Shown: in pieces, positions 2,467 to 6,899 of the stretch
Layout: the number at the start of each line of letters is the position of its first letter
How positions within the stretch are numbered: the stretch's first letter is position 1
NCBI GenBank assembly: GCA_013152435.1
Contig: JAADGJ010000038.1
Span: 1-42,300, forward strand
DNA length: 42,300 nucleotides
Source: Chloroflexota bacterium
Lineage (GTDB): Bacteria; Chloroflexota; Anaerolineae; DUEN01
Reading direction: 5' to 3'
Made by a program: the position numbers and the translations under genes
Notes under the pieces: model-generated
The model's database searches: none
Told to the model about the DNA's origin: nothing
Seen by the model: only the letters and a program-made list of their open reading frames with translations

Positions 2467-4575
2467 CTAGCGGCCATTCCCTGCCGCCGCCGGTTGCCTT
2501 GAGGGGAGCCCACAGAATTGCTCGTAGTCGATCAGCTCGGTTACGGTGGGATGCTCGCCGCAGACGGGGCACTCCTCGTCCCGTCGAATCCTCAGCGTCC
2601 GGAATGTCATGTCCAGCGCGTCGAACATCAGTAGCCGGCCGATCAGCGGTTCGCCGATCTGCAGGATGTATTTGATCGCCTCGATAGCCTGGAGGGACCC
2701 GATGATGCCGGGCAGGACGCCCAGCACGCCCGCCTCGGCACAAGACGGTACCTCACCTGGGGGTGGGGGATCAGGATAGATGCAGCGGTAGCAGGGACCG
2801 CCTTGCGTCGTGTCGTACAGGGTCACCTGTCCCTCGAAAATGAAGATGCTGGCGTCGACCAGCGGCTTCCCCAGCAGCACACAGGCATCGTTCACCAGGT
2901 ACCGGGTGGGGAAGTTGTCCGATCCGTTCAGGATGATGTCGTACTCTTGGAGGATGTCCAGCGCGTTGCTGGAATCCAGGCGCACCCGGTGGGGGATAAC
3001 CTGCACGTCCGGGTTGATCTCCTTGAGCGTGTCGATGGCGGACTCCACCTTGGGGCGGCCGATATCGCTGTGGCCGTGCAGGATCTGGCGCTGTAGGTTG
3101 GACAGGTCGACCTCGTCGAAGTCTACGATGCCGATGGTGCCGACGCCGGCGGCCGCCAGATAGAGCGCCGCCGGTGAGCCCAGCCCTCCTGCGCCGATCA
3201 GTAGTGCCTTCGACTCCAGCAATCTGAGCTGACCCTCCTCGCCGATCTCCGGGATCAGGATATGGCGGCTGTAGCGGGTGCGCTGTTCCTCGTTGAGGAC
3301 GCGAGGGACCACAAAGGGGAGCCCGCTGTTCTTCCACTGCGTGAACCCGCCGGCCATGGAGTAAACGTTTGTGTATCCCATGGCCTTCAGATCACGAGCG
3401 CCCAACAGGGAGCGCACGCCGCCCGCGCAGTAGACGACGATGGGCGCGTCCCGATCTGGCTGGATCTCCTCGATGCGCAGCTCCAGGAAGCCGCGTGGCA
3501 CGAAACGGGCGCCGGGGATATGCCCCTGGACCCACTCGTCCCGCTCCCGGATATCCACCAGCGTCAGGGGCTCTCCCGCATCGAGGCGACGCTTCACCTC
3601 GTATACGTCGAGCTCTGGCACCTGCGCCCGGGCCTGTGCCAGGATCTGATCACGCGTCAGCCGGCCCTGCGGGGTGGCGGCGGGCTCCGCGGTCGTCTCC
3701 GTGGCGGTCGACGTGAGCGGCAGTCCACATGGCCCCACGGGCGCGTCTTCGGTCTGGGCCGTGACGGGCTGGGGTTCCGTGACGCCGTGGCGCCGACTCC
3801 ACTCGGCCCACGAGCCCTCATAATTGCGCGTCTTCTCGAATCCGGCCAGTCGCAACGCCCAGTAGGTGTGAGCGCTGCGGGCCCCCGACTCGCAGTACAC
3901 CACGATCTCCTTGTCCGGCGTGATGCCCGCCTCTGCGAACCGGTGGCGTAGCGTCGTGGCGTCGAGGAACCGCGGCACATCCCCGGTTGTAACGTTGTCC
4001 TCCCAATTCAGGTGGATTGCGCCGGGTAGATGGCCTCGCTCGTATTCCTGAGGCGTTCGCGTGTCCACCAGGATCACGCCCGGGTGTCCCAAATGCGCCT
4101 CGATCCAGTCGATGGTCGCGATCTTGCTCTCGTCTGGCTGGGCGTGATACTCCTTTGGCGAAAGGCGTGGTTCGTCCGTGCTCACCTCGCCTCCGGCCTC
4201 CAGCCAGGCCTGCCATCCTCCGTCCAGCAGATACACTTCCCTCTGGCCCCAGTAGTCCAACAGCCAGGCGATCTGCGCCGCCAGCGGCCCTCCTGAGTCG
4301 TCGTATACCACGACCCGGTCATCCCGGGAGAGCCCAAGCCGGCCGAGGATGGCCTCGCCGGTGGCTTGTGGCACCAGCTTGCCCGGTATGCCATCGATCG
4401 TGGTGAAGAGCTGCCGGGTGTCCAAATGGACCGCTCCCGGGATGTGGCCCCATGGATAGCCGGACTCGATCTGCTCCAGCGTGGGGCGTACGTCGATGAT
4501 CCGCAGATCGGGATCCTTCAGATGCTCCTTTAACCACTCCGCTGTGATCAAGAAACCTTTTGCCTTTTCAGGCAT
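2467..4575 (-). CDS. Triple-rhodanese / MoeB-ThiF E1 fusion protein
   Basis: A 702-residue fusion. Residues about 8-130 form a rhodanese domain with no active cysteine (YDDSGG at the active loop). Residues 150-265 form a second, active one (CESGARS, Cys228); the pair resembles a tandem thiosulfate/mercaptopyruvate sulfurtransferase. After a Thr/Ala/Pro linker a third rhodanese follows (about 320-425, CAGGVRS, Cys383). Residues 430-690 are an E1-like adenylyltransferase: GAGGLGS ATP loop (461-467), zinc pairs CYRC (595-598) and CPVC (669-672), and SCAEAG with Cys612. It should adenylate the C-terminal glycine of the carrier encoded upstream and pass persulfide sulfur to it. In MoeZ/Uba4-type proteins the single rhodanese is C-terminal; here the order is reversed. 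RBS GAGGAGC precedes ATG 4575. Confidence 0.9.
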   Translation of the reverse strand: MPEKAKGFLITAEWLKEHLKDPDLRIIDVRPTLEQIESGYPWGHIPGAVHLDTRQLFTTIDGIPGKLVPQATGEAILGRLGLSRDDRVVVYDDSGGPLAAQIAWLLDYWGQREVYLLDGGWQAWLEAGGEVSTDEPRLSPKEYHAQPDESKIATIDWIEAHLGHPGVILVDTRTPQEYERGHLPGAIHLNWEDNVTTGDVPRFLDATTLRHRFAEAGITPDKEIVVYCESGARSAHTYWALRLAGFEKTRNYEGSWAEWSRRHGVTEPQPVTAQTEDAPVGPCGLPLTSTATETTAEPAATPQGRLTRDQILAQARAQVPELDVYEVKRRLDAGEPLTLVDIRERDEWVQGHIPGARFVPRGFLELRIEEIQPDRDAPIVVYCAGGVRSLLGARDLKAMGYTNVYSMAGGFTQWKNSGLPFVVPRVLNEEQRTRYSRHILIPEIGEEGQLRLLESKALLIGAGGLGSPAALYLAAAGVGTIGIVDFDEVDLSNLQRQILHGHSDIGRPKVESAIDTLKEINPDVQVIPHRVRLDSSNALDILQEYDIILNGSDNFPTRYLVNDACVLLGKPLVDASIFIFEGQVTLYDTTQGGPCYRCIYPDPPPPGEVPSCAEAGVLGVLPGIIGSLQAIEAIKYILQIGEPLIGRLLMFDALDMTFRTLRIRRDEECPVCGEHPTVTELIDYEQFCGLPSRQPAAAGNGR

Positions 4576-4587
4576 GGCTCATGCTCC

Positions 4588-4710
4588 TCATATCTGGTGT
4601 TCTCGCTTCGCTCGATTAGCGCGCCCAATCCAGGCGAGGATCCGTATCGCAACGGCCCGTGCCGTCGCGTCGGCGGCATGGCGCCGGGCCTTCTGTATGT
4701 CTCTCGTCAT
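4588..4710 (-). CDS. 40-residue small ORF coupled to cysO (hypothetical)
   Basis: Not a recognised family. The ATG (4710-4708) overlaps the TGA of the carrier gene as ATGA, and the ORF stops 12 bp before the ATG of the rhodanese/E1 gene, so it fills the gap exactly. The product is 40 residues, rich in Ala and Arg (about 10 Ala, 8 Arg, 2 Lys against 3 acidic), starts MTRDIQKARRHAADATARAV and would form a basic helix; there is no cysteine. Third-position G+C is about two thirds, compatible with coding. No separate RBS is needed if translation is coupled. The position argues for a real gene; an accidental open frame in GC-rich spacer remains possible. Confidence 0.5.
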   Translation of the reverse strand: MTRDIQKARRHAADATARAVAIRILAWIGRANRAKREHQI

Positions 4711-4979
4711 CCGCCGGCCATAGCGGGCACAATGGAGATCTTGTCGCTCTCGGAGACCGGGGTGTTCTTGCCCTGCAAGGTGCGGATCTCGTCCTCGTTC
4801 ACATAGACGCTGAGAAAGCGCTTGATCTCGCCGTTTTCATCCAATAGACGGTCCCGAAAGCCCGGGAATTGCCGCTCCAGGTCCTCGACGATCTCCAGGA
4901 CGGTCTGACCGGATGCCTGGACCCGTGATTGGCCGCCGGTGAGGCGACGTAGTGGAGTCGGAATGTAAACCGTGACCAT
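4707..4979 (-). CDS. cysO: CysO/ThiS/MoaD-type sulfur carrier protein
   Basis: A 90-residue ubiquitin-like beta-grasp protein ending in AMAGG. The exposed C-terminal Gly-Gly is what E1-like enzymes adenylate and convert to a thiocarboxylate. The body (VYIPTPLRRLTGG near the N-terminus, FLSVYVNEDEI and a final ISIVPAMAGG strand) fits the MoaD/CysO group better than ThiS. Its operon partners, a rhodanese/E1 fusion and a CysM-like synthase, point to cysteine synthesis rather than molybdopterin or thiamine, since no moa, moe or thi partners are present. Start ATG 4979 has AGGAGG seven bases upstream. It is the first long gene of the operon and follows a roughly 440-nt leader with an attenuator. 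The CysO role is inferred from context. Confidence 0.9.
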   Translation of the reverse strand: MVTVYIPTPLRRLTGGQSRVQASGQTVLEIVEDLERQFPGFRDRLLDENGEIKRFLSVYVNEDEIRTLQGKNTPVSESDKISIVPAMAGG

Positions 4980-5015: not shown

Positions 5016-5067
5016 AAAGAAAAACGGGACTCATCCTGATAGCGAAAAGCTATGCGATGAGTCCCGC
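5016..5067 (-). terminator. Leader terminator (attenuator) of the cysO operon
   Basis: On the minus strand, CGGGACTCATC (5066-5056) pairs with GATGAGTCCCG (5035-5025); an inner ATAGC/GCTAT stem closes a TTTTC loop. The hairpin is followed at once by TTTTTCTTT (5024-5016). This is a strong intrinsic terminator about 40 nt before the cysO start and downstream of the operon promoter, so it must be bypassed for expression. Its 5' arm is also complementary to 5208-5195. Confidence 0.88.
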
Positions 5068-5194
5068 ACAAACGCTTGGTACGACCGGCCTGATGATGTC
5101 CCGGTGATGGGGCCTTGTCCTGATCGTTGAACGGCCGGAAGAGAGACGTATTGATTTTTATGTATCCATATGCGACACGGGTTTGCCCAAGCTG

Positions 5195-5208
5195 GCGTGA
5201 CTCATCGC
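5195..5208 (-). promoter_or_regulatory. Antiterminator arm of the cysO leader
   Basis: The minus-strand segment 5208-5195 (GCGATGAGTCACGC) is complementary at 13 of 14 positions to 5067-5054, the 5' side of the leader terminator. Pairing would sequester that arm and prevent termination. The same segment can instead fold locally (GGCG/CGCC, 5209-5194). Mutually exclusive pairing of this kind is the hallmark of transcription attenuation. Confidence 0.75.
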
Positions 5209-5399
5209 CTCTGCCGATAGGCGGGGCAACCGCATCGTACACCAGGCTCTTCCCTGGGACGATCGATTGCTCCCGCTATGGACAGATGCACGTAAACGAC
5301 ATCAGCGATTGCCAGCCTTTTGACTGGAGGGCGAAACCCATTCGCATACGTATTCCTTACGGATCTCTTTCCTGGATCTGGGGGGTGTGATGAACACAC
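5202..5399 (-). CDS. Candidate cysteine-containing leader peptide of the cysO operon
   Basis: An open frame in the leader ends at TGA 5204-5202, inside the antiterminator arm. Its last codons read R-C-G-C-P-A-Y-R-Q-R-R, with Cys codons at 5234-5232 and 5228-5226, about eight codons before the stop. A ribosome stalled there would leave the arm free; one reaching the stop would cover it. That is the geometry of trp-type attenuation, with cysteine as signal. Possible starts are GTG 5399 (65 codons, about 19 nt after the predicted transcript start, second codon also Cys) and GTG 5291 (29 residues). Neither has a clear ribosome binding site, so the peptide itself is weakly supported. Confidence 0.3.
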   Translation of the reverse strand: MCSSHPPDPGKRSVRNTYANGFRPPVKRLAIADVVYVHLSIAGAIDRPREEPGVRCGCPAYRQRR

Positions 5400-5424
5400 A
5401 CCCGACGCGCTTCAGACTACCGAC

Positions 5425-5452
5425 ATTATATGCCTTCGGGAGATATTGTCAA
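5425..5452 (-). promoter_or_regulatory. Consensus sigma-70 type promoter of the cysO operon
   Basis: On the minus strand a perfect TTGACA (5452-5447) is separated by 16 bases from a perfect TATAAT (5430-5425). Transcription would start near 5418, giving a leader of about 440 nt before cysO. It lies just downstream (in minus-strand sense) of the end of the UroD-like gene at 5493. Confidence 0.85.
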
Positions 5453-5492: not shown

Positions 5493-6737
5493 TCACCCAT
5501 ATCGTCCGAACTCGTAGGCGGCCTCCAGCATGGCCTCCACGTTCTCCGGCGGCACATCGGCCATCACGTTGTGCACCTGGTTCCAGACGTATCCTCCGCC
5601 GGGCATGAAGATCTCCAGCCGGCGCCGTACATCCTCTCGCACCTCCTCGGGCGTGCCGTGGGGCAGGATGTGTTGCGTGTCGCAGCCGCCGCCCCAGAAG
5701 GTGAGGTCCCTCCCGAACTCCCGCTTGAGCCGTTCGGGGTCCATGCCCTCCGCGCTGGTCTGGACCGGGTTCAGGATCTCCACCCCGGCCTCGATCAGGT
5801 CGGGGATCAGATCGTAGATGCTGCCGCACGAATGCAGGAAGATATGGGCGTCGCCCTGCTCCCGAGCGTATTGGTAGATGCGCTTGTGGCGTGGCAGGAA
5901 CAGCTCCCGGTACATCTCCGGCGACATCTGCGGCCGGGTCTGCATGCCCAGGTCATCGCCAACGACCAGGACCTGCACATAGCCGCGCACCTTGGGCAAC
6001 AGGCGGCTCAGCGTCTCCAGATGCAACTCGGTGAGGCGATCCAGGAACCGGCCCAGCTTGCGCTTCTCGGCGGCCATGTAGATGTACGTGTTCTCCATGC
6101 CGAAGAGCCACTGGCACCATTCGAACAGGTTGCAGCCGATGGAGAGGGAGATGGCGTAGTCGGTGTTCTCATAGAGATGGCGGGCCACCCGGCCGATCTC
6201 GTCCAGCCACTCGTCGGTGAGAGGGCGGTCGAACGGCGGGGAGGGTAGCGCGGCCCAGATGACCTGCGCCATCTTCTCCTCGAGCGGCTCATAGTTGTCG
6301 AGGCCGTCGGGGCCGGCCAGCGGCCAGTACGCCTGGTCGATGTACAGGGAATCTTTGGGCATCCTCCCGATGACCGTCCCACCAGCGTCTTTGATCACCC
6401 AGGCGCCGTTCTCCCGCTCCGGCTGGAACCAGTCGGGCACCATGGCCGGCGAGCCATCGGGCAGCGTCCAGGGCTTCCATTGCGCGGGCCCCGTCGTCGC
6501 CCGCCCGAGGTCGATCGCATCCACGTGGAATCGCTCCAGGAACCAATCCTCGGGCTGGGCCAATTGCTGCACCAGGTCGTAGACGAACGTCGTCCCCTCT
6601 CCGATGCCCAGATGAGCCTTCAGCCGGTTGTAGGCGATGGCCATGATGCCGGTCGACCGCATGGACCCTTGGTCGATGGGAACCCGATCCGGTTCTTTGT
6701 GGGCGATGGCGGCCAGAACCCGCTCACGGGCGTTCAT
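5493..6737 (-). CDS. Uroporphyrinogen decarboxylase-family protein (methyltransferase-like)
   Basis: A 414-residue TIM-barrel protein of the UroD/MtaA/CmuA superfamily, not a true HemE. It has the HSCG motif (LHSCGSIYDLIPDLIEAG) and a later GGGCDTQ, giving the His-x-Cys...Cys zinc-ligand pattern seen in cobalamin- or methyl-transferring members. No heme genes are nearby, so a methyltransferase or C1-related role is more likely than porphyrin decarboxylation; the substrate is unknown. The reading frame is open to 7013, but ATG 6737 has AAGGAGGAG just upstream and begins with the typical MNARERVLAAI, so the longer start is rejected. Divergent from the ROK kinase gene; monocistronic as seen. Confidence 0.85.
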   Translation of the reverse strand: MNARERVLAAIAHKEPDRVPIDQGSMRSTGIMAIAYNRLKAHLGIGEGTTFVYDLVQQLAQPEDWFLERFHVDAIDLGRATTGPAQWKPWTLPDGSPAMVPDWFQPERENGAWVIKDAGGTVIGRMPKDSLYIDQAYWPLAGPDGLDNYEPLEEKMAQVIWAALPSPPFDRPLTDEWLDEIGRVARHLYENTDYAISLSIGCNLFEWCQWLFGMENTYIYMAAEKRKLGRFLDRLTELHLETLSRLLPKVRGYVQVLVVGDDLGMQTRPQMSPEMYRELFLPRHKRIYQYAREQGDAHIFLHSCGSIYDLIPDLIEAGVEILNPVQTSAEGMDPERLKREFGRDLTFWGGGCDTQHILPHGTPEEVREDVRRRLEIFMPGGGYVWNQVHNVMADVPPENVEAMLEAAYEFGRYG

Positions 6738-6899
6738 TGCCTCCTCCTTGTGGCGTATATGAGACACCCTTATTCTACCATATGACGGCCGTTCGCTCAT
6801 ATCTCGTCCGAGGTTCATATGGGCGCCCGCCACCGTTGAGCTCTCTTCTCTCGAGCCCGGGAGAAGGAGGTCTGGGGGATGAGGGCCGTTGAAGAATGT

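Follow-up and report, generated by a model that had tools for sequence, protein, structure and literature searches.

In the window (the 42,300-nt stretch of Chloroflexota DNA analyzed here), the promoter of the cysO operon lies approximately 440 nt upstream of cysO, and a strong terminator is located between them. The genes of the operon are on the minus strand. cysO (4707-4979) encodes a ThiS/MoaD-fold sulfur carrier ending in GG (ThiS Pfam match, 2.9e-14), and its best PDB match and closest solved structure is 3dwg_C (6.5e-20), the CysO chain of the M. tuberculosis CysM complex. In the protein encoded by the next gene (2467-4575), an E1-like ThiF/MoeB domain is joined to three rhodanese domains, and the third gene (1453-2436) encodes a CysM-type cysteine synthase (PLP).

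A first-pass annotation had proposed that a transcription attenuator with mutually exclusive hairpins precedes this operon, and the elements it named are confirmed in the sequence. The consensus promoter, TTGACA (5452-5447) and TATAAT (5430-5425) separated by 16 nt on the minus strand, matches the sigma-70 consensus at 12 of 12 positions, where 0.4 sites of at least 9/12 are expected by chance in a 2-kb stretch; the start site probably lies near 5418. The same TTGACA-16-TATAAT promoter precedes the cysO leaders of a congener (L003) and of a distant relative (L023). The intrinsic terminator (5066-5025 plus U-tract) has a folding energy of -26.9 kcal/mol and consists of segment 3 (GCGGGACTCATCGC..., 5067-5049), segment 4 (5043-5025) and a U-tract (5024-5016), with 36 nt between its end and the cysO start codon. 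Segment 3 is also the 3' strand of the antiterminator: positions 5067-5054 (GCGGGACTCATCGC) are complementary at 13 of 14 positions to 5208-5195 (GCGATGAGTCACGC), and this 2:3 duplex is stronger than that of 200/200 shuffles. The whole leader fold, at -175 kcal/mol, outperforms 100/100 dinucleotide shuffles (z -5.1).

A leader ORF with Cys codons and a protector hairpin, which complete the scheme, were absent from that annotation. The ORF (5347-5276, minus strand; 23 codons plus TAG, MRMGFALQSKGWQSLMSFTCICP) reads ATG CGA ATG ... ACG TGC ATC TGT CCA TAG and is preceded, 6 nt ahead of its ATG, by the Shine-Dalgarno sequence AAGGA (5358-5354); the duplex of GTAAGGAA with the anti-SD amounts to -5.1 kcal/mol. 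The putative regulatory codons, TGC ATC TGT (Cys-Ile-Cys, 5290-5282), are separated from the stop by a single Pro codon, so that the two Cys codons almost adjoin it. Segment 1 (GCATCTGTC, 5289-5281), the 5' arm of the protector hairpin, pairs with 5215-5207, with one A-G mismatch in the window helix that counts against the attenuator reading. The first G of the G+C-rich apical part of this hairpin (GCGGGAGC...GCCCCGC, 5276-5222) is also the G of the TAG stop; this part is supported by a consensus fold with compensatory changes. Segment 2 (5215-5195) comprises the protector 3' arm (5215-5207) and the overlapping antiterminator strand (5208-5195), and is followed by a spacer of variable sequence (5194-5068), a candidate timer, which measures 127 nt in the window and 32-154 nt among the listed leaders. 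The sequence elements that characterize a leader-peptide attenuator are present here: between promoter and terminator lies an ORF that has a start codon and a ribosome-binding site, its putative regulatory codons specify the amino acid that the operon makes (Cys; cysO/cysM, cysK), an intrinsic terminator with a mutually exclusive antiterminator precedes the first gene, and a protector hairpin includes the regulatory codons.

A blastn search of the same genome and its family finds the RNA core five times, in the window, in a second copy ahead of cysK in the same genome (L002:866-1877, on contig C123), twice in a congener (L003 and L007) and once in another genus (L004), and each copy directly precedes cysO or cysK. 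A covariance model of these five leaders finds one more before cysO in another family (L023, genome G028); this model, R1, is too narrow, recovering only the original leaders and that of G028 from 396 genomes. A pattern scan of 84,980 species yields 26 matches, of which 3 are real by the covariance model and the others lie in unrelated genomes, and a search of viral contigs gives no match for the leader. The frame and tail of the window ORF recur in L002, L003, L004, L007 and L023, with CIC(P/L) and a stop terminating the leader ORF in 6/6 close homologues, whether before cysO or cysK. The block GTGCATCTGTC..TAG, which is kept in 6/6, is the end of the open frame. The Cys-Ile-Cys tail and stop are constant in the leader peptides of these relatives (MRTGSAIQPRGWQSLTSLTCICP, MRIGIACQRKSWSALTSLTCICL, MHVRTARRRGSWHTLTPLRCICP, MRLRGRRLLTTLTCICL and MRLAVTLFVYQCICP), and the residues N-terminal of the tail vary. 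The presence of the attenuator before both the cysO operon and cysK indicates that the two branches of cysteine synthesis share one control device.

CysO relatives are present in 126 of 249 genomes of the Chloroflexota class of the host, and 50 upstream regions of the best CysO matches were inspected. Of these 50 regions, 34 contain a short ORF whose last ten residues include C.?C; dinucleotide shuffles give a mean of 8.0 (maximum 12), and the reverse strand gives 9. Among cysK upstream regions, the count is 10 of 30 versus 5.25. The 16 cysO regions of the class in which no Cys-tail ORF is found count against the attenuator reading. Six cysO loci of family f33 and genome G130 (L056, L061, L063, L065, L073 and L077) lack both a Cys leader ORF and the terminator layout, so that their control must be different.

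Curation results in a set of 37 leaders (31 cysO and 6 cysK) from 26 genera and 11 families of the class. In the last C-x-C of these leaders, which were selected by the Cys tail and curated by eye so that tail regularity is partly built in, the second Cys codon is TGT in 37/37, the first is TGC in 30 leaders and TGT in the other 7, and between the two stands ATC, TCC, TCG, ACC, ACA, TTG or TTA. Three main tail styles occur, namely TC(I/S)C(P/L/R), TCSC.(G/E/K)R(A/V), and CCTC..RAR or CCICC.RAP. Most leaders have two Cys codons only, which counts against the attenuator reading; others have 3-5. In family f15 (L066, L080, L082, L087 and L092), a -10-like TACACT lies 7-9 nt before the leader ATG and no clear Shine-Dalgarno sequence is seen upstream of it. 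The ORFs of this family may thus be leaderless, a property reported for the polycysteine ORFs of mycobacteria.

Three results are independent of the selection by Cys tail. Outside the class, in the rest of the phylum, 39 regions ahead of cysO contain no Cys-tail ORF. When terminators with a 5' arm that can also pair 60-200 nt upstream are sought regardless of ORFs, the 2:3/3:4 layout is identified at 23 loci (3/200 shuffles show it), and at 21 of the 23 a CxC/CC ORF ends 20-130 nt before the upstream arm. A DNA pattern blind to genes (TGT, stop, CGG, then GCGRTGAG) has 15 matches in 298 genomes, of which 12 are before cysO, 1 is before cysK and 2 are apparently due to chance; the cysK match is a new locus with the leader tail PLTCICL. 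Since the pattern read backward gives about ten scattered matches, the association with genes is significant and the number of matches itself is not.

Per-leader duplex p-values are noisy (p<=0.01 for 2:3 in 15/37), and swap tests were therefore chosen, in which own and exchanged partners are compared among the 34 leaders with all four segments placed, kinship among leaders being ignored. Own partners score 21.9 over the 14 positions of 2:3 versus 16.2 for swapped partners (sd 0.85; 0/2000) and 13.8 versus 11.7 in the 3:4 core (0/2000), and the 1:2 duplex amounts to 11.8 versus 9.6 kcal/mol (0/500). Two-sided changes are evident in the 2:3 core, where one pair is GC in 26 leaders and AT in 4 and another is CG in 32 and GC in 2. 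The cysK leaders of G052 and G017 are a clear example, with segments 2, 3 and 4 reading ATGCAATGAG, CTCATTGCAT and TGCAATGAG, versus GCGATGAG, CTCATCGC and GATGAG in most other leaders. The covariation across 34 leaders, together with the comparison with 200/200 shuffles, indicates that the 2:3 complementarity exceeds chance. The proposal of mutually exclusive 2:3 and 3:4 pairing before the cysO operon is supported by these matched-versus-swapped comparisons, and covariation of the arms in related leaders, the absence of which had been named as grounds for discarding it, is present for 2:3, 3:4 and 1:2.

Switching was modeled on partial transcripts reaching the end of segment 3, either as free RNA or with the stretch under a stalled ribosome removed. 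The modeled P(2:3) exceeds 0.5 in 7/34 leaders as free RNA, in 34/34 when a ribosome occupies the first Cys codon and in 31/34 when it occupies the second; in the window, it changes from 0.02 in free RNA to 1.00 when the first Cys codon is occupied. Shuffling the Cys-codon segment alone raises P(2:3) in 28/34 leaders (Wilcoxon 6e-5) and shuffling a piece of the spacer raises it in 26/34, which indicates that the Cys-codon arm acts along with other elements in keeping segment 2 closed. In the window, P(2:3) changes only from 0.02 to 0.03 when the Cys-codon segment is shuffled. This negligible effect counts against the attenuator reading and suggests that segment 2 of the window is blocked partly by other 5' sequence. 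At equilibrium, P(3:4) in the window is 0.75 with or without the ribosome; because the finished terminator wins either way, the attenuator model needs kinetics.

Given these features of the sequence and its relatives, the leader very probably acts as a ribosome-mediated transcription attenuator whose input is charged tRNA-Cys, and we infer that the regulation is by cysteine. When cysteine is plentiful, the ribosome would complete the leader ORF and leave, and 1:2 would form; segment 3 would then be free to form the 3:4 terminator, and transcription would stop before cysO. If the cell runs short of charged tRNA-Cys, a ribosome stalled on TGC or TGT would cover segment 1 and leave segment 2 open until segment 3 is made. 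The 2:3 antiterminator would then form, and RNA polymerase would go on to transcribe cysO, cysM and the rhodanese-E1 gene between them. Since even a ribosome on the stop codon does not reach as far as segment 2, its release is probably needed for the OFF state, and for this release the spacer of roughly 100 nt (127 nt in the window) may allow time.

The conserved core initially suggested a riboswitch, an idea that was rejected once this core was recognized as the closing part of the open frame. The leader could still act as a riboswitch that binds cysteine, O-acetylserine or some other sulfur metabolite, the short frame lying by chance within its conserved aptamer. A structured core conserved across the closest relatives and the strong leader fold are compatible with this explanation, and no Rfam 15 family matches the leader in the window or in 12 relatives, which leaves space for a new class. 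However, the blocks conserved in the close relatives are accounted for by the codons and their pairing partner, the distant leaders lose this conservation but retain the CxC codons, the stop and the arms of segments 2, 3 and 4, and the Cys codon count rises to 3-5 in other leaders; a riboswitch is thus very unlikely. A T-box that directly reads uncharged tRNA-Cys would also suit the cysteine genes, the alternative terminator and antiterminator, and the UGC triplet present in a stem. Nevertheless, no match to the Rfam T-box model, with its stem I specifier loop and T-box antiterminator, reaches the gathering score in the window or the 12 relatives, none appears in the leader up to E 5, and the antiterminator is a long plain helix in which no sequence for the tRNA acceptor end is seen, which makes a T-box extremely improbable.

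The hairpin at 5066-5025 could instead merely terminate an upstream transcript, with the promoter of cysO below it, as a URO-D-family gene on the same strand ends upstream at 5493. However, a promoter with a perfect match is located downstream of that gene and ahead of the hairpin, a search for promoters below the hairpin found none, and many genomes have the terminator together with segment 2 and the leader ORF, all covarying; this explanation is very unlikely. The evidence as a whole supports a putative sensor that consists of a short ORF ending in Cys codons rather than an aptamer, and a ribosome-mediated mechanism.

The attenuators of the enterobacterial his, trp and leu operons comprise end-product codons and protector, antiterminator and terminator segments, and all four element types are also found in the Chloroflexota leader. 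In the trp attenuator, segment 2 is masked once the ribosome has reached the stop codon. By contrast, segment 2 of the Chloroflexota leaders compared starts some 37-98 nt past the stop codon, behind the G+C-rich hairpin, and the OFF state seems to be set by ribosome release, unlike in trp.

Among cysteine leaders, the uORFC-8-2 motif before cysS in Rhodobacterales (Alphaproteobacteria), a predicted ribosome-mediated transcription attenuator, is similar in that a short ORF has Cys codons inside the first stem and is followed by a terminator and a U run (PMC8632094). Judged by its published description, this motif is set apart by its gene, that of cysteinyl-tRNA synthetase, and its tandem Cys codons at approximately positions 14-15 (PMC8632094), whereas the Chloroflexota leaders precede cysO or cysK and usually have Cys-x-Cys near the stop. 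In Actinobacteria, leader peptides with Cys codons, without terminators, have been predicted upstream of cys operons; these polycysteine ORFs resemble the present ones in being short, in having Cys codons near the stop and in preceding cysteine-biosynthesis operons (PMC1262725). They were later described as cysteine-responsive attenuators (Canestrari 2020, cited in PMC13236596), whose control PMC13236596 calls translational. The possibly leaderless ORFs of some Chloroflexota relatives may be a further likeness. However, a terminator was not found in mycobacteria, whereas the Chloroflexota leader has a full intrinsic terminator, an antiterminator and a protector.

The suggestion that this attenuator is a new control element stands in part. 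The principle of a Cys-codon leader peptide is already known; no Rfam model exists, so that these leaders go unannotated by Rfam, and the Chloroflexota family appears to be undescribed in the literature searched, in which nothing relevant on leader peptides in Chloroflexi/Chloroflexota was found and few subscription papers were covered. As far as the searches reached, this is the first cysteine leader-peptide attenuator family in Chloroflexota, and its terminator, antiterminator and protector all covary. We tentatively propose, with somewhat more doubt than belief, a class-specific family timed by ribosome release, with C-x-C-stop, a G+C-rich hairpin starting from the stop codon, an antiterminator strand beyond the ribosome footprint and a spacer of approximately 100 nt as a clock, which would jointly control the CysO/CysM branch and the CysK branch, the latter beside a Mec-like JAB gene, partly via leaderless ORFs.

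The CysO thiocarboxylate route to cysteine is best known from Mycobacterium tuberculosis. The leader would provide this route with a concrete regulatory input, presumably charged tRNA-Cys, and ties it to cysK via one common device. Upstream of the window leader, a URO-D-family protein (uroporphyrinogen decarboxylase fold) is encoded at 5493-6821 on the minus strand, and its gene is probably unrelated to cysteine. In the distant relative G028, the promoter of the cysO leader is closely preceded by a tRNA gene (L023:1330-1403). A TusA-like gene (MKLDVRGEICPYPMLKAVEAM...) is not seen in the window operon and is located between cysO and the rhodanese gene in the congener (L003, 2326 onward). At L002, the gene order is metallo-beta-lactamase, JAB-domain protein, attenuator and cysK, as at L007 of the congener, and by analogy the JAB-domain gene of L002 possibly encodes a Mec-like CysO-Cys hydrolase.
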